Shown: in pieces, positions 3,561 through 21,087 of the stretch
Layout: each line of letters begins with the position of its first letter
Numbering within the stretch: position 1 is the first letter of the stretch
DNA from: a virus
Virus record (IMG/VR): IMGVR_UViG_3300044691_000536
Span: 1 to 21,720 of that record
Direction: 5' to 3' (one strand)
Length of the DNA: 21,720 bases
Notes under the pieces: generated by a model
Databases searched by the model: none
The model's input: the letters and a program-made list of their open reading frames with translations, nothing else
Told to the model about the DNA's origin: nothing
Made by a program: the position numbers and the translations under genes

Positions 3561-3806
3561 ATGGATGCGATTGATCGTGTGACGCTGGCGGAGCTAGCCC
3601 AGCTTCGGGCGGAACCTTACGATCCGCCGGCAACGCTTGACGCAGAGCCCATGGCTGATCAACAGCGTGAGGTGCTGCAACGCGGTGGATTCCGCCATAT
3701 CAATTTTGTGGTGGAGGTGAGGGACATAGAAAACGCGGCCGCTCCGTTCCCCGTCCGCGCGCTGCGCCACCAGCGCCAGGCAATCGGGCTGTTCGTGCCG
3801 CGATGA
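3561..3806 (+). CDS. Small hypothetical protein
   Basis: An 81-residue protein from ATG 3561, chosen because AGAGG (3551-3555) lies 5 bases upstream. The same frame stays open back to a GTG at 3438 (122 residues), and ATGs at 3450 and 3531 are alternatives. No domain recognised. The central 'VLQRGGFRHINFVVEVRD' segment looks like an amphipathic strand-helix unit. It is the last gene before the inverted repeat that precedes the terminase small subunit. Only moderate support. Confidence 0.4.
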   Translation: MDAIDRVTLAELAQLRAEPYDPPATLDAEPMADQQREVLQRGGFRHINFVVEVRDIENAAAPFPVRALRHQRQAIGLFVPR

Positions 3807-3813
3807 GCTGGCA

Positions 3814-3869
3814 GATTTTTCCGCCGGAAACCGGTTCATTTGCTTCCTTAATAAGGCGGCGGAAAAATC
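3814..3869. repeat. 13-bp inverted repeat upstream of terminase small subunit
   Basis: GATTTTTCCGCCG (3814-3826) is exactly complementary to CGGCGGAAAAATC (3857-3869), with a 30-base spacer that itself contains the palindrome AACCGGTT (3829-3836) and CCTTA-A-TAAGG (3846-3856). No T tract follows on either strand, so it is a poor intrinsic terminator. Being 78 bases upstream of terS, it could be a cos/pac-type packaging site or an operator. Confidence 0.6.
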
Positions 3870-3946
3870 AATGTAGGTTGTGGGCAGCAGTTTTTTCTAT
3901 TGCGATTATTTCAGCGTTCCTCGTGAGCATCTTCCGGTGAATTTTG

Positions 3947-4390
3947 ATGAAAGGTCGGCCAAGCTCATACAGCGAGGAGACGGCAGACGAAATATGCCGT
4001 CGATTGGCGGATGGGGAAAGTCTGCGCTCGATCTGTCGTGATGATAGGATGCCTACCGAGGCATGCGTTCGCGGATGGGCGATAGATGATCGAGAAGGAT
4101 TTAGTTCGCAATACGCGCGAGCCAAAGAAGTACAGTTCTCTGCTATGGCAGACGAACTAATTGATATTGCCGACGATGGCCGTAATGACTGGATGGCTCG
4201 CCCTGGTAACGCCACGATTGGCTACGAACTAAACGGCGAGCATGTTCAGCGGTCTAGATTGCGGTCTGATACTCGCAAGTGGTTGTTGTCTAAGTGCTTG
4301 CCTAAGGTCTACGGCGACAAGATCAACGCAGATGTCTCAGTTGACGGTGGAGTTACCATCAAGATCGTGGGCGGACTGCCGGAGGATTGA
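3947..4390 (+). CDS. terS: Terminase small subunit
   Basis: A 147-residue protein of the Sf6-like small terminase family, which recognises phage DNA at the packaging initiation site and hands it to the large subunit. The N terminus (about 8-55) is a helix-turn-helix with the typical 'ETADEICRRLADGESLRSICRDD..MP' pattern. It is followed by the 'YARAKEVQFSAMADELIDIADD' oligomerisation helices and a 'KWLLSKCLPKVYGDK' segment common in this family. ATG 3947 is chosen; a TTG lies one codon upstream. Unusually, the large subunit gene is about 5.9 kb away rather than adjacent. Confidence 0.9.
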   Translation: MKGRPSSYSEETADEICRRLADGESLRSICRDDRMPTEACVRGWAIDDREGFSSQYARAKEVQFSAMADELIDIADDGRNDWMARPGNATIGYELNGEHVQRSRLRSDTRKWLLSKCLPKVYGDKINADVSVDGGVTIKIVGGLPED

Positions 4391-4415
4391 GCGGCTCACA
4401 CTGTAAGGGCGCTAG

Positions 4416-4520
4416 ATGCGGAAGGCTGGCGGGTTAACCAGAGGGATACAGGTCACCCTCGAAGTCAGCACTGTGAGGCTGCAAATGCTTCTGCCCATGC
4501 ATACCAGATTGCACCCCTAA
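4416..4520 (+). CDS. Possible 34-residue leader ORF before the Ig-like fibre protein
   Basis: An ATG with AAGGG 8 bases upstream opens a 34-codon basic frame that ends in CCC-TAA one base before the TTG of the next gene. A +1 slip from CCC to CCT at this stop would join it to the Ig-like protein, which has no ATG or good ribosome site of its own. It could equally be non-coding; no protein family is recognised. Confidence 0.25.
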   Translation: MRKAGGLTRGIQVTLEVSTVRLQMLLPMHTRLHP

Positions 4521-4521
4521 G

Positions 4522-5649
4522 TTGCCCACTGGCACCATCATAATCGGCACGATCGGCACGCAGACTGAAGGCGTGCCGTTCACAGTAGCTGGCACTTACG
4601 CGATGTCCGGAGGTTCGTTCGTCGAGCAACTCGTATACAAAGACAATGCCGGAACGAACATACCAATTACATCGCCGGTCATTAACCTCCATACCGCAAC
4701 CTGGACGCTAAACCATCCCGGCCTGGCAGCGGGAACGCACACCGTATCGCTCCGCGACAAACTGACCGGTGCGACGGTTGTGTCGAACTCATTCACGGTC
4801 TTGCCGAAGCCGGCCCTGACGATCAGCCCGATTCCCTCAGAGGCCCCAGGCGCCACGTTCACGCTGTCTGGGTCGTATGCCAACTTCCCCGCGGGCGCCC
4901 CGGCGCTTACATACACCATTGACGGCGGTGCCCCTCAAACCGTTACGGTGGTCTCGGGAGGGACATTCTCGACGCCAGCTACGGCGCCCACGGCGTTGGG
5001 CCAACACAGCGCCGTGGTGTCTGCTTCTGGTACCGCGTCTCCGGTAGCTCTATTCACGGTAGCGTCGGTCGCCAAGTCGATATCGTTCTCGATACCTGCC
5101 AATCTTGCTCCGGGGCAGGCGTTCACGTTCTCCGGCTCGATCTCCGGCTACACGACCATTCCAGGCATTACCTACTCTATCGACGGCCTGACACCGGTCT
5201 TGATCACTGGTGTCACGCTGACCGGGTGGTCGATGTCGATTACGGCGCCGGGCTCGGCTGGTAGCCATACGATCACAGTTACCGATGGTACGATCTCGAC
5301 GCCAGTATCGTTCACGGTTGTTGCCACCCCGAAAACCATTGCACCAGCGCAGCCGTCTGGTGTTCTGGCTGGCACTGCATTCACCGACACTGGGACGCTT
5401 GCTGGCTACACAACAATCCCAGTCCTGACATACTCGCTCGACGGCGGCGCGCCGGTAACGATGACCGGCGTCTCTGTCACCGGTTGGGCAACGTCTATCA
5501 CCATCGCGACGACTGGTTCTCATACGCTTGTCGTCTCAGACGCCTTTGGCACAACGCCGGGATCGACGACCTTTACGGTCGCAGCAGCTACGCCACCCGC
5601 GGTGACGTGGAACCCGTCCGACAAGGCGTCGTTCATCACGTTGACCTAA
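4522..5649 (+). CDS. Tail-fibre part 1: four Ig-like repeats
   Basis: A 375-residue protein built of four bacterial/phage Ig-like beta-sandwich repeats at roughly residues 1-95, 96-182, 183-268 and 269-355. The signature in repeats 3 and 4 is 'G.F..SG...GYTTIP..TYS.DG..PV..TGV..TGW'. Such repeats decorate phage fibres and bind carbohydrate or extend the adhesin. The C terminus 'WNPSDKASFITLT' resembles the lead-in normally found just before SPRY domains, and an SPRY-like protein begins 4 bases later in another frame. The start is uncertain: TTG 4522 has no Shine-Dalgarno and the upstream frame closes at 4474 without an ATG. Probably virion tail fibre. Confidence 0.8.
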   Translation: MPTGTIIIGTIGTQTEGVPFTVAGTYAMSGGSFVEQLVYKDNAGTNIPITSPVINLHTATWTLNHPGLAAGTHTVSLRDKLTGATVVSNSFTVLPKPALTISPIPSEAPGATFTLSGSYANFPAGAPALTYTIDGGAPQTVTVVSGGTFSTPATAPTALGQHSAVVSASGTASPVALFTVASVAKSISFSIPANLAPGQAFTFSGSISGYTTIPGITYSIDGLTPVLITGVTLTGWSMSITAPGSAGSHTITVTDGTISTPVSFTVVATPKTIAPAQPSGVLAGTAFTDTGTLAGYTTIPVLTYSLDGGAPVTMTGVSVTGWATSITIATTGSHTLVVSDAFGTTPGSTTFTVAAATPPAVTWNPSDKASFITLT

Positions 5650-5653
5650 GAAA

Positions 5654-6343
5654 ATGCCGTCAAATTCCCCGTTCTCTGCTGAATTTAGTCCGGATTTTGG
5701 TTTCACCGTGAATAATACCGCCACAGCAACCGGGAGTGCAACGATCGGTGCGCAACCGCAGGCTGTCCGCGCGACGGCGCCGATAAACATCACCAATAAA
5801 CCGGTGGTGTGGGAAGTTACACTCGTTACCCTGACACAGAATTATGCGATTGGCATGGCGGATAGCACCTACAATTTGCTGTCGGCTGGGGGCCTTGGAT
5901 TTGACGCCGTTTCCATCGGCGTCTATCCATTATCAGGGTCACATGCGGCGCAATCGGTATTTTATAATAGCTTGCAGCTCACCGCAGGGAATGGAGTTTC
6001 AAGCGCGAATGGCGATATTGTGTCGCTTGCGGCCAACGGGAAGAGCTTCTTTTTCTCTACCCCGTCCATGCGTGCGACCGCTGGCGTGGCCTGGAACAAC
6101 TCGACGACGGCGGACCCGGTGACTAATGTTGGCGGACTAGCATTCTCCGGCTCGCCAAATCTTCCTTATTATCCGGCGTTCAGTGAGCAGGAATCACCCG
6201 GTTCCGTTACTCTCAATGACGGAACTACGGCGTTCAGTACTTTCCTCACGAGCTATCAGACGGCGCATTCTGGTGCGACCATCTCGCTTGGGGCGCAGGC
6301 TTCGTTACCATCGACAAAGACTATCACCCCGAACCCTCCATGA
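5654..6343 (+). CDS. Tail-fibre part 2: SPRY-like (B30.2-type) domain
   Basis: A 229-residue, beta-rich protein with a pattern like the SPRY/concanavalin fold: 'AVRATAPI..TNKPVVWEVTLVTL..NYAIGMAD', then 'VFYNSLQL', 'GDIVSLAANGKSFFFS' and a late 'GVAWNN'. SPRY domains are protein or glycan recognition modules. It ends in KTITPNPP, which corresponds to the first strand of the Ig repeats (KTIAPAQP in part 1), and the rest of that Ig domain continues in the next frame. The stop overlaps the next ATG (ATGA at 6340-6343). Together with part 1 it looks like a segment of one formerly continuous fibre. Confidence 0.7.
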   Translation: MPSNSPFSAEFSPDFGFTVNNTATATGSATIGAQPQAVRATAPINITNKPVVWEVTLVTLTQNYAIGMADSTYNLLSAGGLGFDAVSIGVYPLSGSHAAQSVFYNSLQLTAGNGVSSANGDIVSLAANGKSFFFSTPSMRATAGVAWNNSTTADPVTNVGGLAFSGSPNLPYYPAFSEQESPGSVTLNDGTTAFSTFLTSYQTAHSGATISLGAQASLPSTKTITPNPP

Positions 6344-8799
6344 GCGTTACCGCGGGAGCACCGTTTCCATTCACTGGGTCGATTAGCGGATATATCAACG
6401 CGCCGAACCTGACGTATTCTATAAATGGTGCCACGGCTATCATTCTGCCAGGCGTCACTGCCACCGGATGGTCCACGACACTGACCGTTGCCGGCGCGGG
6501 AACTTACACCATAGTCGTCTCGGACGGGAGCGGAACGACCGGGTCGGTTACTTTTGTGGCGTCATCCGCTACGGAATCAGTCGATAAGACGGACATTAAT
6601 TCTGCCGGTCCAACGATCAATGCCTCTCCTAATCCAGGCACAGCAGGCAGTGGAAATATCATAGCAATTACGCCCGGAGGTCAGCTTAGCGTAAATGGCG
6701 TGGTTATAGCCGCAACAAGTGGGGTTGCCGAAATATATTACAGCAATCATACCGCTTACCAGTTTAATGGAACACAGTGGTTTGCGCCGATTGTAGCTGG
6801 GAATGGTGGAATACTATTCCCGAACAATCCGAAGTCCCCAGAATCATTCCAGAATACTGACATTACGACTGTCGGCCCAACGCTCAATGCTTCTCCTACC
6901 CCAGGCACAGCAGGTAATGGCAATATCATAGCGATCACGCCTGGTGGGCAGGTCAGTGTCAATGGTGTTACTATAGCATCAACAGGCGGGGTCACTGAGC
7001 TATACTATGCCAATCATACCGCTTACCAGTTTAACGGAACCAATTGGTTTGCGCCGATTGTAGCTGGGAATGGTGGAACACTGTTAGCGAACAGTCCGAA
7101 AGTTCGCAATTACCTCGTGGGCTACCGTGACGGCAACCCTAATGACACCACGACAGCAGGACTGTTGGGTTATGCATGGGAGTACACCATCAACAACAGT
7201 GCTCAAGATCCCGGGGGTGGTTCTGGCGTCAGCGGGCTTGGTTCGTCTCCTCATCCTGGCGTGTCGGTCATTATCGACGTGTTTCATCTCGACAACGGCA
7301 CCCCGAGCTATATGGACCCGGTCGTCGCGGGGAATGGTGGGTACAATACCTTCTATACTCAAACTGCGCAGGCGCTTATCCAATATGCAAACCTCATCCA
7401 TGGTGTTCGCATTGATTCTGAGTTCAACGGCAACTGGCAGATTTGGGGAGCGTTTGGCGGCGTCGGACAGGTAATTGACGCAACTACCTATATTAATGGG
7501 TGGCGCAACCTGGCGCAGGCTATCCGTACGGCTCTACCCTTGGCCAAGATTATCTGGAATCCGAACCTTGGGTGGAATAATCCGTATCCATATTATCCTG
7601 GAGATGATCTGGTTGATCTCATTGGGTTTGATGCCTACATGCAGCCGGCATTCTCGGGGACCTCAACATCGGCACAGGTGTGGCAAGACTTCCTGAATGG
7701 TCAAGGTGGCAACAACCTTACTGCCATGGCCGCATTTGGTTTTTCTCACAACAAGCCGCTTTGCTTCCCCGAATGGGGCGACGGATTTGGTGATGGCTAT
7801 TATATCACGCAGTTCGGTGCGTGGATGGATCAACACAACGTTGTTGCTCACTCCTATTGGGACTCCTCTGACGGTCTTACCAATACCACCGCGCTAACGC
7901 AGCTACCAAACAATCAAGCAGCGTTTGTAAAGGCTTTCGGCCATCGGCCCTACACCGGGACATACTGGCCATCACTCACACCTACCGGCGGGGTGTCACC
8001 ACCAGCGCAGGCCACGGCACAAGGGTTTGCCACCTTAACTGGGGGGGCTGAGTTCAACAGCCAGACCGACGTGACGAACGTCATCAACGGTAGTACTGTC
8101 GCGGCCCTCTATAATTTTGATGGTGGGGGGGCGGGGATGCCGGCGAATGGATGGAGCATTTCAAACGGCATCTTGTCAATAACTGCTGCTACCAATCACG
8201 GACAAGGTCTTGAGACGCTATGTAATTCAAATGCCCCGATATCAGTAGGACCTGTCAGCGTCAACGGAAGGAAGACTAATATCGGGACAGGTATGCTCTT
8301 CCGTTATTTCTACATGGAAGCCAGTATTCGGTTCAATTGGCAAGCTGGTCCTGGCGCCGCATTCTGGACGTGGGCATATAATAATGGTGGGGCTCCAAAT
8401 ACATTGGAACTCGATATCGTCGAGGTCGGATCGGATAGCAATGTCTTCTCATTCTGGCACGGCCACGGCTCGGGCGGTGATGACGGTCCTAACACCGGCG
8501 GCAACGCGTCTCTCAACGGGAATTTAACTGGTTGGGCGGTCCCCAATCAGCGGCTTAATAAAAGCAATTCTCCTGCTGTGTTCAATAAATACGGTTTATT
8601 GTGGACTACGGCAAAAGTCGAATGGTATTACAACGATGTTTTGATCCAGAATTTTGCGACCAACACACCTATCCCATGGTCAACTGGGGGGAATCAGACG
8701 GCCAACAGCATTGACAATATGGGGATTATGGCTCTAGCAGCCATCTTCGGAACCTGGAGTGAACAAATGGATATTGACTGGTTCCGCGTCTGGCAATGA
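6340..8799 (+). CDS. Tail-fibre part 3: bifunctional depolymerase, Ig + 2 modules + GH26-like + GH16
   Basis: An 819-residue protein. Order: the remainder of an Ig-like domain (1-73); two 89-residue modules (79-167 and 168-254) with the pattern 'N.TAYQFNGT.WFAPIVAGNGG'; a TIM-barrel glycosidase of clan GH-A, best matching GH26 (about 256-545), with the probable acid/base Glu361 in RIDSEFNGNW and nucleophile Glu478 in CFPEWGDG; and a C-terminal GH16 domain (about 570-819) with the diagnostic ELDIVE motif (Glu690, Asp692, Glu695) and 'FNKYGLLWT..KVEWYYN'. No signal peptide is present, as expected for a virion protein. It likely degrades host surface or exopolysaccharide during adsorption. GH16 is secure; the GH26 family assignment is less so. 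Confidence 0.88.
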   Translation: MSVTAGAPFPFTGSISGYINAPNLTYSINGATAIILPGVTATGWSTTLTVAGAGTYTIVVSDGSGTTGSVTFVASSATESVDKTDINSAGPTINASPNPGTAGSGNIIAITPGGQLSVNGVVIAATSGVAEIYYSNHTAYQFNGTQWFAPIVAGNGGILFPNNPKSPESFQNTDITTVGPTLNASPTPGTAGNGNIIAITPGGQVSVNGVTIASTGGVTELYYANHTAYQFNGTNWFAPIVAGNGGTLLANSPKVRNYLVGYRDGNPNDTTTAGLLGYAWEYTINNSAQDPGGGSGVSGLGSSPHPGVSVIIDVFHLDNGTPSYMDPVVAGNGGYNTFYTQTAQALIQYANLIHGVRIDSEFNGNWQIWGAFGGVGQVIDATTYINGWRNLAQAIRTALPLAKIIWNPNLGWNNPYPYYPGDDLVDLIGFDAYMQPAFSGTSTSAQVWQDFLNGQGGNNLTAMAAFGFSHNKPLCFPEWGDGFGDGYYITQFGAWMDQHNVVAHSYWDSSDGLTNTTALTQLPNNQAAFVKAFGHRPYTGTYWPSLTPTGGVSPPAQATAQGFATLTGGAEFNSQTDVTNVINGSTVAALYNFDGGGAGMPANGWSISNGILSITAATNHGQGLETLCNSNAPISVGPVSVNGRKTNIGTGMLFRYFYMEASIRFNWQAGPGAAFWTWAYNNGGAPNTLELDIVEVGSDSNVFSFWHGHGSGGDDGPNTGGNASLNGNLTGWAVPNQRLNKSNSPAVFNKYGLLWTTAKVEWYYNDVLIQNFATNTPIPWSTGGNQTANSIDNMGIMALAAIFGTWSEQMDIDWFRVWQ

Positions 8800-9368
8800 A
8801 ATACTTCCGGCAGGTCATGTCCGGGATCGATGTGCAGCCGCTGCTGGCGCAGATCGAGGGGCATCCAGAGTTGTGGTCTCGCACTGGCGCATGGACAGAC
8901 GGAAAACAGAGCGTCCTGGCCAAGATGGAAACTGGTCTGGCTGCCAAGCGTATTGAGTTGCGCTACAACACGACGCCCGCCGGGTTGCCGAAGCATCCAA
9001 AACATTGGAACCGCGCGGCATGGCCTATTCTTACCGAGGCGACAAAGCTGATCGCAGCGTTGCAGTTCGCGCTTGGCGGAATTGAGATGCTTGGCCGTTG
9101 TATTATTTCCCGAATGGCCCCGGGTGAGGTCATCGCGCCACACACGCATGAGGTTCAGTTTGGGCTGCCGCCGATATTCGAGACGTATCAAATCCCGTTA
9201 CAGGTCGATCGGGGGGTCAGGTTCTATTGCGGCTATGAGGATTGCTACATGGAACCGGGAACTGCATGGACATTCCCCAATCAAGTTGAGCATACCGTGC
9301 ACAACGGCAGCTACCGAGATCGTATTTCCATGATGGTTGATATCAGGCCGTTGGGAGTGAACAGATGA
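8796..9368 (+). CDS. Aspartyl/asparaginyl beta-hydroxylase-like Fe(II)/2-oxoglutarate oxygenase
   Basis: A 190-residue double-stranded beta-helix protein. The motif PGEVIAPHT places a metal ligand at His116. The second is His166 in 'NQVEHTVHNGSYRDR', and Arg176, ten residues later, matches the 2-oxoglutarate-binding Arg spacing known from human AspH (His725/Arg735). No Asp/Glu ligand is obvious, consistent with the two-His AspH type. It overlaps the depolymerase stop by four bases (ATGA). Family role: hydroxylation of Asp/Asn/His or related side chains. Here it might modify a fibre or capsid protein, or a host protein; that is inference. Confidence 0.75.
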   Translation: MKYFRQVMSGIDVQPLLAQIEGHPELWSRTGAWTDGKQSVLAKMETGLAAKRIELRYNTTPAGLPKHPKHWNRAAWPILTEATKLIAALQFALGGIEMLGRCIISRMAPGEVIAPHTHEVQFGLPPIFETYQIPLQVDRGVRFYCGYEDCYMEPGTAWTFPNQVEHTVHNGSYRDRISMMVDIRPLGVNR

Positions 9369-9583: not shown

Positions 9584-9765
9584 CTTTGTGGGTCATACTT
9601 TCTCTGGCCACTATTGGCGGACCTCAGGCAGGTTTTTCGGTCTTCGATAGCGAGGAAGCCTGTCAAAATGCGCTCCCAGCACAGGACGAGAAAGTGCAAA
9701 TAACCGGGCGGCTTTGGGTGTGTGCCCCAATCGCGTTGCATACAGATAAAGCGCCAGGACGTTAG
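9580..9765 (+). CDS. Small protein with N-terminal hydrophobic segment
   Basis: A 61-residue protein from ATG 9580, inside the ATGA stop-start overlap with the preceding gene. Residues 1-19 are hydrophobic and could be a short signal peptide or anchor, followed by 'FSVFDSEEACQNALP' and a second Cys in 'LWVCAPI'. The two cysteines suggest a small disulfide-bonded periplasmic domain. The pattern 'F.S.EAC..A...' recurs in small secreted phage and bacterial proteins of unknown function. Confidence 0.6.
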   Translation: MTLWVILSLATIGGPQAGFSVFDSEEACQNALPAQDEKVQITGRLWVCAPIALHTDKAPGR

Positions 9766-9784
9766 CCCGTCGGGAGGCGTAAAC

Positions 9785-10303
9785 ATGTCAGACCTAACCA
9801 TTCAACTCCCCCTACTAAACGAGCGCCAGATCGAGGCCCACGCGCGCTTCCGGGAAGTCAGGAAGGCACTGCTCGTGCGTCCCCGGCGGTGGGGAGCGAC
9901 GACGCTGGCGATGACCGTGGCAGTGGATGCCGTGACCAAGGGGCGGCGGGTTGGATGGTTTGATGGCCTTCCTGGTGTTGGTTCGTTCGATGAGATCGCA
10001 GCCATGCTGGAGCCGGTTGCTACATCGGTTTCTAGGCCGTGCGAGACACCGATTCGACGGAATTGGGTGCGACAGGGGGATAGCGTCATACGAACCAGTG
10101 TTCGGGGGCTATTTCTGTTCTATGACGCAGCCAGCAAATTAGCGGGTCATGCCCGGTCTTTCGATTTGGTCATCGTTGATAACACGACCCACTGCACTTC
10201 TGCGATGCAGTGCAGCATGTTCGGTGATGATACGCGTGTGCTTGTGCTTCTGTCTGATGAAGATGTGGTGCCGCAAGAGTTCGCGCATCTGGCGCGGATT
10301 TAA
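9785..10303 (+). CDS. ATPase-dead truncated paralogue of terminase large subunit
   Basis: A 172-residue protein from ATG 9785 (GGAGG 7-8 bases upstream). It aligns along its whole length with the first ~165 residues of the terminase that follows: RRWGATT (34-40) against RRWGKTD, AVDAVTKGRRVGWF against AVDAAVKGKAVGWF, LAGHARSFDLVIVDN (119-133) against LAGRSRHYHIVIMDE, and VLVLLSDED against VLVISNTNG. The Walker A Lys is Ala38 and the Walker B Asp-Glu is Asp132-Asn133, so ATP hydrolysis should be lost. The nuclease domain is absent. The open frame and good ribosome site argue for a maintained protein rather than debris. It may regulate or cap the terminase; unproven. Confidence 0.8.
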   Translation: MSDLTIQLPLLNERQIEAHARFREVRKALLVRPRRWGATTLAMTVAVDAVTKGRRVGWFDGLPGVGSFDEIAAMLEPVATSVSRPCETPIRRNWVRQGDSVIRTSVRGLFLFYDAASKLAGHARSFDLVIVDNTTHCTSAMQCSMFGDDTRVLVLLSDEDVVPQEFAHLARI

Positions 10304-10306
10304 GCC

Positions 10307-11662
10307 GTGCGCGAGATCGAGGTCCGTGTCCCGACGTTTTACCCAGCGCAGGTTGCGGCGTTCAACACATGGCGAAAGAACCGTTTTGTTGTTGGAAGAT
10401 GCGGGAGACGGTGGGGTAAGACGGATTTTGGCAAGGTCATCGCGGTAGACGCTGCGGTCAAGGGTAAGGCAGTAGGTTGGTTCGCGCCGAATTACAAAAT
10501 CCAAACAGAAGCTTACGCTGAAATTGCGGCTGCGCTTCGGCCGGTTAAGACAGAGTCATCCGAGATGAAGGGCCTGATCCGCACCATGAAGGGCGGCAGG
10601 ATCGACTTCTGGACGACAAATGACCCTCTGGCCGGCCGGTCTCGGCATTACCACATTGTCATTATGGATGAAGCAGCGTTCATGAAAGAGAACGCCATCG
10701 ACATCTGGGACCAGGCGATCGAGCCGACGCTCTATGACTACACCGGCAAGGTACTGGTAATATCGAACACGAACGGGATTTCTCCAGCTAACTTTCTCCA
10801 TATGCTGTGTGAGCCAGATGCCGTGCGGCCCGCTGGAACACCCGGCCCGGAGCGGGGGTTTGTCGAGTTCCACGGAACGATCTATGACAATCCGCACCTT
10901 CCGAAAAGAAAGGCAGGTGAATCAGATGCGGCTCATGCGACCCGGCGCGCGGAGAACATTGAGACGCTTCGTAAGACGAAGCACCCACTCGTCTGGCGGC
11001 AGGAATATCTCGCTGAGTTCGTTGACTTCAGCGGCGATGCGTTCTTTCTGAAGGAGTGGCTATTAGTCAATGGCAAGGCCGTGCCATATCCACGCAATTG
11101 CGACTTTGTTTATGCGGTCATTGATACGGCAGTAAAGTCCGGTCGGGAGCATGACGGCCTGGCGGTCACCTTCTTTGCCAACGATGAGTATTCAGGCAAG
11201 CCACCGATCACGGTACTCGATTGGGACATCTCGAACCTTGAGGGGTCTTTGCTTGAAGCATGGCTTCCGAACGTGTTCCGTCGCCTCGAAGAGCTGGCCA
11301 AGCTGTGCGGCGCGCGGGCTGGATCGCTTGGTGCCTGGATCGAGGACAAGGTGTCTGGCACGATCTTGCTACAGCAAGGCCGGCGAAAGGGCTGGCCGGT
11401 CCATGAGATCGATTCGGAGCTAACGGCAGTCGGCAAGGATGAGCGCGCGGTTTCGGTTTCGGGCTACGTGGTCAGCGACAAGGTCAAGATATCGGAGTTC
11501 GCGTGGGATAAGACGAGCCCCTACAAGGGCGTCCATCGCAATCACTTCCGGGCTCAAGTTCTGGGGTTCCGCGTGGGCGCGAAGGGGAATCAGGTTGACG
11601 ATTTACTCGATACATTCACGTATGGGATTGCGATAGGTCTCGGCAACCAGGACGGATATTAG
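10307..11662 (+). CDS. terL: Terminase large subunit (ATPase + nuclease)
   Basis: A 451-residue packaging motor. ATPase domain: Walker A GRCGRRWGKT (30-39, Lys38), Walker B IVIMDE (117-122, Asp121 and catalytic Glu122), coupling motif VISNTNG (151-157). The C-terminal RNase H-like nuclease has the expected acidic residues: Asp in 'VYAVIDTA', Glu-Asp in 'GAWIEDKVSG' and Asp-Asp in 'GNQVDDLLDTFTYG'. The start is GTG 10307, three bases after the dead paralogue's stop, so the two are co-transcribed and probably co-translated. It pumps DNA into the prohead through the portal and cuts genome ends. Length is normal for the family. Confidence 0.93.
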   Translation: MREIEVRVPTFYPAQVAAFNTWRKNRFVVGRCGRRWGKTDFGKVIAVDAAVKGKAVGWFAPNYKIQTEAYAEIAAALRPVKTESSEMKGLIRTMKGGRIDFWTTNDPLAGRSRHYHIVIMDEAAFMKENAIDIWDQAIEPTLYDYTGKVLVISNTNGISPANFLHMLCEPDAVRPAGTPGPERGFVEFHGTIYDNPHLPKRKAGESDAAHATRRAENIETLRKTKHPLVWRQEYLAEFVDFSGDAFFLKEWLLVNGKAVPYPRNCDFVYAVIDTAVKSGREHDGLAVTFFANDEYSGKPPITVLDWDISNLEGSLLEAWLPNVFRRLEELAKLCGARAGSLGAWIEDKVSGTILLQQGRRKGWPVHEIDSELTAVGKDERAVSVSGYVVSDKVKISEFAWDKTSPYKGVHRNHFRAQVLGFRVGAKGNQVDDLLDTFTYGIAIGLGNQDGY

Positions 11663-12735: not shown

Positions 12736-12942
12736 ATGGCTAACCTACCTGACTTTCAGACGGTTTTGCGTCAGATCGGCGAGCGCGTGCTTTGTCGTGA
12801 TCGTGGCATTCCCGTATCCGAATTGGATAGCGAGCTTGAACGGCTGGGCAACATGGTGGTGAAAATCGACGTAGCCAGGGCCAGGGCGGTGGATGCGGTG
12901 ACCAAGGGTCATAATGTCGGGTGGTTTGCGCCAGATGGCTGA
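12736..12942 (+). CDS. Chimeric small protein with a terminase-like fragment
   Basis: A 68-residue frame. Its first part, MANLPDFQTVLRQIGERVL, is encoded by a sequence repeated near the MuF gene. Its last 20 residues (AVDAVTKGHNVGWFAPDG) match the segment just after Walker A in both terL (AVDAAVKGKAVGWFAP) and the dead paralogue (AVDAVTKGRRVGWF). There is no Walker motif, so it cannot be an ATPase. Its stop lies inside the portal start region (ATGGCTGA at 12935-12942). It is probably a recombination remnant that is still translated, or a coupling leader for the portal. Confidence 0.5.
   Translation: MANLPDFQTVLRQIGERVLCRDRGIPVSELDSELERLGNMVVKIDVARARAVDAVTKGHNVGWFAPDG
12742..12764 (+). repeat. 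23-bp exact direct repeat, copy 1 (upstream of portal)
   Basis: These 23 bases are identical to 16745-16767, and similarity continues for about a dozen further bases. Each copy lies just upstream of a head gene (portal here, MuF there) and encodes NLPDFQTV in the same frame of a small ORF. Confidence 0.8.
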
Positions 12943-15457: not shown

Positions 15458-15589
15458 TCCCAGCATCCACTGGGACGCAGCAACCACGGAAGCCCTTCAT
15501 CGGTGCCCGGTGGTTGCCTAAACCGCAACCCCCTGCTTGCTGCCGGGCGTGGATGGCCGGGCACCGATGGGGACTTTCCCGAGGTGAAA
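15458..15589 (+). promoter_or_regulatory. Structured leader with competing inverted repeats before the Rha-HNH gene
   Basis: Several complementary pairs sit in this leader: TCCCAG/CTGGGA (15458-15463, 15470-15475); CATCCAC/GTGGATG (15464-15470, 15549-15555); GCAACCAC/GTGGTTGC (15480-15487, 15510-15517); GGTTGC/GCAACC (15512-15517, 15525-15530); and a perfect 13-bp CATCGGTGCCCGG/CCGGGCACCGATG (15498-15510, 15557-15569). Several are mutually exclusive, as in a switch or attenuator. The AGGTG ribosome site of the next gene lies 12 bases past the last stem. Confidence 0.55.
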
Positions 15590-16432
15590 ATGAGTAGCGA
15601 AGCCGTGAACCTTGTCGGCGATCTGCGCTTGCGTGCCGATGGCATGATACCGGTGGTCAATAGCCGCGATGTGGCGGAGGTGTTCGGTAAGAGGCATGAT
15701 CACGTGCTTCGGGATGTTGATGCTCTGATCGGTTCCCCAGATTTGGGGAGCCTTATAAATCAAGGGGTTAGCGCTTTTCGCGAACTGGCCATCTTTGACG
15801 AAAAAGCCAATCGCGAGGTTCGATGCTTCGACATGACGCGCGACGGTTTTACACTGTTGGTCATGGGCTGGACCGGCGCAAAGGCGATGAAGTTCAAGAT
15901 CGCCTACATCAAGGCATTCAACGCCATGGAGATAGAGTTGCAGAAACCCCCGATTGTTCAGGGGGGGATCACGGCTCAAGAGTTACTGGCCGGGCTGAAA
16001 GAGGCGATCGCGCCATTGGCGACGCGTTTTGATGGACAGGACAAAGCGCTTGGTCGTGTCGAAAGCCGGGTTGATGGATTGGCGGAAGACGTGGCGTGTA
16101 TCAAAATGCGCCTTAACAGCGGTCGGCGCAGGATACAGGACAAGGCTAAACGCGATCATATAGCCGATATTTTCGAGCTGGGTGGTCGCTGCCCGTGCTG
16201 TAGCAAGCATGCAGTTGTAGATACAGACGGGAATAGACTCCCGTTCACGGACTTTGATCACTTTTGGGAAAATAGTATCGCTGACTCTTCGCACACTTGG
16301 CTTATCTGCAAGCCGTGCCACAATGAACTTACTCGTGGCCAAGTAGCGCGCTCTAACCGCACATCGGTATTCAACGCTTATCAGGACCAACGTAGTCGCC
16401 TATCTGCCAGGCAACCTCGTCTGTTCGGATGA
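15590..16432 (+). CDS. Rha-family regulator fused to an HNH-type zinc domain
   Basis: 280 residues from ATG 15590 (AGGTG 4 bases upstream; an upstream in-frame ATG at 15503 would run through the structured leader). Residues about 18-118 are the phage pRha domain: 'VVNSRDVAEVFGKRHDHVLRDVDAL' and 'FDMTRDGFTLLVMGWTGAKAMKFKIAYIKAFNAME'. A coiled-coil-like linker (about 130-180) follows. The C terminus has CPCC (201-204), DH (223-224), His235 and CKPCHN (240-245), like an HNH endonuclease or zinc-ribbon. Rha proteins are phage regulators or antirepressor-type factors. The fusion could couple DNA recognition with cutting. ATGA overlap with the next gene at 16429. Confidence 0.8.
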   Translation: MSSEAVNLVGDLRLRADGMIPVVNSRDVAEVFGKRHDHVLRDVDALIGSPDLGSLINQGVSAFRELAIFDEKANREVRCFDMTRDGFTLLVMGWTGAKAMKFKIAYIKAFNAMEIELQKPPIVQGGITAQELLAGLKEAIAPLATRFDGQDKALGRVESRVDGLAEDVACIKMRLNSGRRRIQDKAKRDHIADIFELGGRCPCCSKHAVVDTDGNRLPFTDFDHFWENSIADSSHTWLICKPCHNELTRGQVARSNRTSVFNAYQDQRSRLSARQPRLFG

Positions 16433-18859: not shown

Positions 18860-19014
18860 GACTGTAATTCTTTCTCGACTTGATCGAGCCATTCTTGAAC
18901 CAATCTATCAGAATCTTTTTCACCGTATTCACTTTGAGCTGCCCCGAGAGCCCACTGAAGCGTTTCGAGGATTTTCTTTGAGGGGCGCGGCAACAGGATG
19001 AGGATGGGGGTCAT
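18856..19014 (-). CDS. 52-residue helical protein of minus-strand cassette
   Basis: Starts MTPILILLPRPSKK at 19014 and ends EKELQS, with ATGA overlaps to the genes on both sides. The body (LETLQWALGAAQSEYGEKDSDRLVQEWLDQVEKEL) is an acidic amphipathic helix. No family known. Its last codons (GAA TTA CAG) and the overlapping start mirror the end of the 57-residue gene at 19211, including position relative to the next start. Confidence 0.6.
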   Translation of the reverse strand: MTPILILLPRPSKKILETLQWALGAAQSEYGEKDSDRLVQEWLDQVEKELQS

Positions 19015-19214
19015 GGACCAGATCCTTGGGTTACGAGAACGCCATGCGAGACAATAGGCACGTTCGTTCCGTCGTCGTCTATGTAGACGAGATCGACCAT
19101 ACGCACTGGATATGGAAGCGGCCCGCCGGTTAACATGAACGACTGCCCCGGAGCGAGGTTGGCAACGGTGATCGCCTCAGTCTGGGCAGGGATTGGGATC
19201 GTGGTGTTGGTCAT
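19011..19214 (-). CDS. Orphan truncated Ig-like domain
   Basis: A 67-residue protein resembling the N-terminal Ig-like domain of the plus-strand fibre: 'NLAPGQSFMLTG' matches NLAPGQAFTFSG in repeat 3, and 'VDLVYIDDDGTNVPI' matches VEQLVYKDNAGTNIPI in repeat 1. It stops after about two thirds of a domain. ATG 19214 lies in an ATGA overlap with the 57-residue gene, whose end supplies GAGGAGG as a ribosome site. It may be a decoy, a capping strand donor, or debris of a second fibre. Confidence 0.65.
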   Translation of the reverse strand: MTNTTIPIPAQTEAITVANLAPGQSFMLTGGPLPYPVRMVDLVYIDDDGTNVPIVSHGVLVTQGSGP

Positions 19215-20406: not shown

Positions 20407-21087
20407 ATGGCAGGTTCTGTTGTCATCGCTGCCCTAAAGAATGACGCAACTATGGATATTCCGATCACCGGCGTGGCCGCTGATGGCACCACGGTTGTGC
20501 CACTGCCGGCCGGCGTCACTCCGGTGTTAGGACCTGTAAGTGACGCAGTGAGCCTCGGCGCCAAGATCGTCCCGCCCACCGCGCCGGCAACTGGGTTCAT
20601 GTTGCACATCAATGCGCTCGTCCCTCTGCAAGCAACTGCGATGACCGTCGAGGTTGATGACGGCACACTCAAGCCGATGGTGTTGACGGTCAGCGCCATC
20701 GTTGCCGACATCCCGCCGGCTGCCAGTGTTGGTCTTGATGTGGCTCATGCCACTGTCGGCACGCAGCCTGTTCCGGGTGCGGTGGTGGTGGTGCCGCCAG
20801 TAGTGATGGAATCGGCTGACAAAACCTCAGTCACCACCGCTGGGCCAGTCATCAACGCGTCGCGCACTCCAGGAACGGCCTCAACTGGACCGTTTGACAC
20901 GTTCGCGCTAACGGCAAACCCAGGGTTCATCGTTGTCAATGGCGTGACGGATACGGTCACCTCGCTTGAGGTGGTTCAGCTCTTTTACAAAGGACATCAA
21001 ACCTTCCAGCAGAACAGTGCGCTACTGTGGTGGATGTGGGATGGCACCACCCCTTGGGTATCCACCCCAACTGACCCGACGATCTAG
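20407..21087 (+). CDS. Probable structural/decoration protein with depolymerase-type module
   Basis: A 226-residue protein with a strong ribosome site (AAGGAG, 9 bases). The N terminus (1-130) is a beta-rich Ig-like domain, similar in style to the next structural gene at 21578 ('D.P.T..ADGTTVVPLPAGVTPV'). The C terminus (about 134-226), from ESADKTSVTTAGPVINASRTPGTA to 'FQQNSALLWWMW', is a divergent copy of the two 89-residue modules in the depolymerase (ESVDKTDINSAGPTINASPNPGTA ... QFNGTQWF). The module probably binds carbohydrate or mounts on the virion. Exact role inferred. Confidence 0.7.
   Translation: MAGSVVIAALKNDATMDIPITGVAADGTTVVPLPAGVTPVLGPVSDAVSLGAKIVPPTAPATGFMLHINALVPLQATAMTVEVDDGTLKPMVLTVSAIVADIPPAASVGLDVAHATVGTQPVPGAVVVVPPVVMESADKTSVTTAGPVINASRTPGTASTGPFDTFALTANPGFIVVNGVTDTVTSLEVVQLFYKGHQTFQQNSALLWWMWDGTTPWVSTPTDPTI

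Follow-up and report, generated by a model that had tools for sequence, protein, structure and literature searches.

Organization of the locus

The DNA analyzed here, hereafter the window, is a fragment, a virus record of 21,720 bases (IMG/VR IMGVR_UViG_3300044691_000536). Three open reading frames (ORFs) are located on the plus strand between TerS (3944-4390, PF20901) and TerL (10307-11662), at 4522-5649, 5654-6343 and 6340-8799 in frames 1, 2 and 1. The open stretch of frame 2 runs from 5645 to the TGA at 6341; frame 1 is open up to the TAA at 5647 and then a second time between 6220 and 8797. Part 1 (375 residues, from an uncertain TTG start) contains four Ig-like repeats followed by the first strand of a SPRY domain. 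Its TAA stop (5647-5649) is separated by a gap of 4 nt from the ATG of part 2, which lies in the SPRY frame. Part 2 (229 residues) comprises 19 new residues, the body of the SPRY domain (5711-6298) and strand A of the next Ig repeat. An ATGA stop-start overlap (6340-6343) connects it to part 3 (819 residues), composed of Ig repeat 5 minus strand A (6343-6555), two repeats of ~85 residues, and glycosidase domains revealed by profile matches to GH26 (7414-7734, E 2e-8) and GH16 (8290-8673, E 4e-6). Apart from the two junctions, the three frames are intact. ORFs, frames, overlap and gap are all as described in an earlier reading of this DNA made from the sequence alone (the sequence-only reading). 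A further ATGA couples part 3 to a gene encoding an Asp/Asn beta-hydroxylase-like protein (8796-9368, plus strand; PF05118, E 6e-12). A portal and a head morphogenesis protein are also encoded in the window. The site between TerS and TerL is an odd one for a receptor-binding or depolymerase gene.

Domains cut by the ORF boundaries

The ORF boundaries cut a SPRY domain exactly once and an Ig-like repeat exactly once, an arrangement proposed in the sequence-only reading and borne out by profiles from relatives that fit both sides of each cut. The SPRY profile, built without the window, aligned the lead-in left at the tail of part 1, TWNPSDKASFITL (5605-5643, plus strand), with positions 1-13 and part 2 with positions 17-209, whereas the first 19 residues of part 2 match nothing in the profile. 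An Ig-repeat profile derived from whole repeats of relatives only aligned the C-terminal 8 residues of part 2, KTITPNPP (6317-6340, plus strand), with positions 1-8, and residues 2-72 of part 3 with positions 10-80. This octapeptide constitutes strand A of Ig repeat 5 and shares 5 of 8 residues with its equivalent in repeat 4, the likeness first noticed in the sequence-only reading. Among 4,536 8-mers from 15 window proteins, a score of 5 is unique to KTITPNPP and only repeat 4 itself scores higher.

A profile comprised of six SPRY sequences matches the SPRY domains of RanBP10 and RanBP9 (E 2e-5), the match starting at the W of W-x-P-x-D-K. The Pfam cut-off for SPRY was not reached, the best value being E 0.14 for one member. 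No Pfam cut-off was reached by the Ig repeats (Big_3 only, at E 0.66), thus the label "Ig-like" rests on the repeat pattern and predicted strands. AlphaFold2 models were too poor for use, with a mean pLDDT of 38 for part 3 and 31 for the SPRY domain.

Relatives and the fused homologue

The sequence-only reading proposed that homologous loci be searched for a fused version of the gene. Such a version was found in L012 (IMG/VR 3300045391_003842) and L013 (IMG/VR 3300033475_000088) as a single ORF of 1619 codons that opens Ig-Ig-SPRY-Ig, the order seen in the window. Part 1 is homologous to the beginning of the fused L012 protein, which reads unbroken through VVWDATHKSSTIVLSNGSGTATSSG and HTITPVSPGTVTAGQAFTFHGTISGY at the places matching the window junctions. 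The likeness is at the N-terminal end; the fused homologue is one ORF with a distal GH5 domain (Pfam), whereas the window encodes GH26-GH16. L012 and L013 are viral contigs of 115,788 and 38,243 bases that come from different metagenomes and match at 100% identity across 16.3 kb of compared sequence. The fused version shows that the three ORFs descend from one gene, in agreement with the view that they are pieces of one, and the relatives reveal the polarity of both cuts.

The only close relative known, L004 (IMG/VR 3300044691_000438), is about 80% identical in DNA sequence. Parts 1 and 2 of L004 occupy one frame of 407 codons, ended by the contig edge, and its part 3 begins at the same ATGA as part 3 of the window. 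The TerL and portal genes are likewise downstream of the fibre-like locus in L004, and the counterpart of the Asp/Asn beta-hydroxylase-like gene lies downstream of the fibre within an ORF at 3742-4437. The SPRY lead-in is continuous in L004, L012 and three further SPRY loci (L022-L024). Weak matches in approximately 400 genomes from the order of G004 yielded one likely SPRY protein (L011, E 9e-4), the lead-in of which, WDPSTNRGEILSNGNRTATD, is also continuous; most of the other weak matches in these genomes looked out-of-frame or unrelated. No relative of parts 1, 2 or 3, or of the N-terminal region of L012, was found among named phage records. A portal-based search added a further relative, L006, the short record of which gave no SPRY match.

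Age of junction 2 and selection on its flanks

At the ATGA overlap (junction 2) the window and L004 are each one base shorter than the fused L012. The 60-nt blocks flanking the junction are 73-87% identical between window and L004, and an identical run of 10 nt spans it. A recent exchange between the two phages as the source of the shared ATGA was rejected, the divergence around it being normal. Since the cut is common to both phages and the surrounding divergence is normal, junction 2 predates the divergence of window and L004, and the substitutions that separate them therefore arose after the split. For this single pair, L004 being the only close relative known, parts 1, 2 and 3 gave dN/dS values of 0.20, 0.14 and 0.13, respectively, comparable with those of TerL (0.16) and the portal (0.11). 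Part 3 has 819 open codons in both phages, while simulated neutral evolution at 0.1 substitutions per site left part 3 open in 0.1% of runs. Since junction 2 is old and dN/dS values of 0.13-0.20 have accumulated since it arose, the results indicate that it is a working gene boundary. Both phages retain the KTI of strand A, all three codon changes within it being silent, although the eight codons of the strand hold too few changes to prove constraint.

The sequence-only reading had allowed that the two shifts are compensating indels. This did not hold, as junction 2 is old and present in L004, whereas junction 1 is missing from L004 and the other SPRY relatives. The two junctions are thus separate events of different age, and the second shift, back to frame 1, does not compensate for the first. 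That reading had also named a finding that would speak against it, stable separate genes in relatives with full Ig domains in each. This was half borne out: part 3 is indeed a stable separate gene in L004, but the Ig domain there is the same incomplete one. Overall, the observation made from the sequence is confirmed and its interpretation partly supported.

Translation of part 3

In both phages the open frame of part 3 contains a single start codon, the ATG at 6340 in the window and at 1221 in L004. Among the gene pairs listed, seven neighbouring pairs overlap by ATGA (1588, 1779, 2165, 6340, 8796, 9365 and 16429), and this overlap is the phage's commonest, ordinary gene junction. No XXXYYYZ slippery heptamer is present in the usable overlap of the window (6216-6343) or L004 (1064-1224), and no unusual RNA structure was detected at junction 2 (z-scores -0.14 to 0.89). 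These results favour termination-reinitiation over frameshifting at junction 2. Reinitiation, probably the simplest mechanism judging from the sequence, would produce separate proteins, and the overlap of stop and start together with its retention in the only close relative is consistent with it. No Shine-Dalgarno-like sequence precedes the restart at either junction; in coupling tests with Haloferax such motifs were not essential, and 13 of the 14 overlapping pairs examined there showed strictly coupled termination-reinitiation (PMC6728339). Short gene overlaps are enriched among subunits of heteromeric complexes (PMC10666635). The junction resembles these pairs in its four-nucleotide overlap, co-directional genes, related products and lack of an independent start (PMC6728339, PMC10666635), and differs in that the boundary falls inside a domain that is whole in the fused homologue and in that no Shine-Dalgarno motif is present. 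The earlier suggestion that reinitiation makes both split and fused fibres is thereby retained for the reinitiation itself, the best reading at junction 2, and not for its product, which would be separate proteins.

Probable insertion at junction 1

Junction 1 is a net 58-nt insertion present in the window only (5647-5707, plus strand), with L004 reading straight through. The insert contains the TAA stop of part 1 and the ATG restart of part 2. Its G+C content is 43% compared with 62% and 54% in the flanks, and about 5% of the 61-nt windows of the locus are as low. Neither the window nor the retrieved loci yielded a donor sequence for it. The junction is a recent one and is known from a single metagenome contig. 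It is best read as a second split with a coupled restart, a reading less certain than that for junction 2 and for which an assembly fault is the main rival.

Alternative explanations

It is improbable that the fibre of the window is simply decaying, a pseudogene broken twice. Both cuts fall inside domains, and in lambda PaPa a frameshift has split the side tail fibre gene into the adjacent reading frames ORF401 and ORF314, both truncated (PMC9659904). However, the fibre of lambda PaPa was lost in a laboratory strain, whereas here the split is found in two diverged phages with strong purifying selection on both sides after junction 2 arose, part 3 has remained open in both, and the three frames of the window are otherwise intact. 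Still less probable is recoding at junction 2, in which a -1 frameshift near the stop of part 2 would join parts 2 and 3 into a full-length fusion in some of the product. In its favour, the cut falls in the middle of the fold, a shift of -1 made at the stop would restore the Ig repeat gap-free, and phages are known to append Ig-like domains via +1 or -1 frameshifting (PMC5009743). Phages T3 and A2 gain Ig-like domains via -1 frameshifting (PMC5009743), and SPP1 extends its tail tube protein (gp17.1*) via +1 frameshifting (PMC6316719), so that in all three a C-terminal module of a structural protein lies behind a frame change. Their shift sites are recognizable and a whole protein is extended, whereas here a domain is cut, no shift site was found in either phage and the RNA structure is ordinary; the programmed frameshift of the sequence-only reading therefore has no sequence support at junction 2. 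Any shift would also be confined to CCA-TGA, since the preceding codons fit the Ig strand in frame 2 only.

The insertion at junction 1 could be an assembly or sequencing fault, the real phage having parts 1 and 2 fused like L004. This is unlikely, yet less so than decay or recoding. The insert is in one contig only, the lead-in is continuous in L004 and the other SPRY relatives, and a 32-nt piece of the insert has no exact copy in the viral contigs searched. Against a fault, an insertion of 58 nt of unique sequence is atypical of indel errors, the divergence from L004 is similar on either side of the junction, and the insert supplies an in-frame ATG 4 nt past the stop. From these features we infer that the insertion is real. 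Translational bypassing was considered because ACC TAA ... ACC GTG resembles T4 gene 60, in which an out-of-frame insert likewise contains a stop directly after a codon matched further on (PMC5009743). Ribosomes would hop from ACC (5644-5646) over the TAA to ACC (5705-5707) and resume at GTG, making parts 1 and 2 one protein across a 61-nt out-of-frame gap not found in relatives. Such a hop is very improbable: the window is without the take-off stem-loop of gene 60 (-2.2 kcal/mol, z 0.7), the matched codons have a chance of ~12% (ACC 4.0%, three positions), and the putative product is one residue short, with four residues in a turn that has five in all five relatives.

Proposed history

The reading favoured here, with a probability of about 0.62, is a two-step fission of one adhesin-glycosidase gene, with reinitiation at junction 2 and a later 58-nt insertion at junction 1. 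The ancestral gene would have encoded Ig repeats, SPRY, Ig, further repeats and glycosidases. A one-base change within the Ig repeat that follows SPRY, in the ancestor common to the window and L004, would have created the ATGA overlap, such that ribosomes ending part 2 reinitiate on the overlapping ATG and produce part 3 as a chain of its own. The two pieces would then have been retained by purifying selection, a retention which argues that the split product works. The two chains are most plausibly held together by the end of part 2, the strand A of which would complete the Ig-like fold that opens part 3. In the lineage of the window only, the insertion into the first SPRY hairpin would later have parted part 1 from part 2, leaving a restart codon 4 nt past the stop of part 1.

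Gene fission with translational coupling is of a known kind; the unusual part is the stably halved Ig-like repeat. In at least one survey, of frame transitions, the division of a conserved domain between two genes was assumed not to occur (PMC3711429), and junction 2 looks like an exception. If the reading of junction 2 is correct, an Ig-like repeat has long been kept in two pieces with the first strand provided by the upstream protein, constituting a natural split-domain joint inside a fibre that arose from one base change and reinitiation. It would also offer a route from a long modular fibre to a multi-subunit fibre, and would caution against taking a domain that lies across two ORFs as proof of frameshifting or error.

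Likely role of the protein

No tail genes were recognized in the 21.7 kb window. The GH26-GH16 portion has a counterpart, with 66% identity, in the C-terminal part of a 1273-residue protein of L005 that adjoins tape-measure and baseplate genes and contains FN3 domains matching central tail fibre J. The sequence relationships suggest that the product is likely a tail-borne adhesin and polysaccharide-degrading enzyme. Related SPRY domains are found at the C-terminal end of glycosidases in L022-L024. Since these glycosidases appear, as judged by eye, to start with signal peptides, secretion is possible in other phages.

Other features of the window

TerL is flanked by two short ORFs (9722-10303 and 12736-12942) that resemble its N-terminal part, with 28% identity over 181 residues (E 8e-19) and 50% over 32 residues (E 1e-7), respectively. 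They are partial terminase duplicates and may represent remnants or an accessory ATPase-like protein. The ESxDKT repeat of part 3 recurs in an ORF of 226 residues (20407-21087). On the minus strand, a short ORF (19011-19214) contains a piece resembling the Ig repeats, of which 40 nt (19125-19164) are 85% identical to the fibre. The protein encoded at 15503-16432 combines an N-terminal part of the Rha/antirepressor type with an HNH-like C-terminal part, which suggests a temperate relative.
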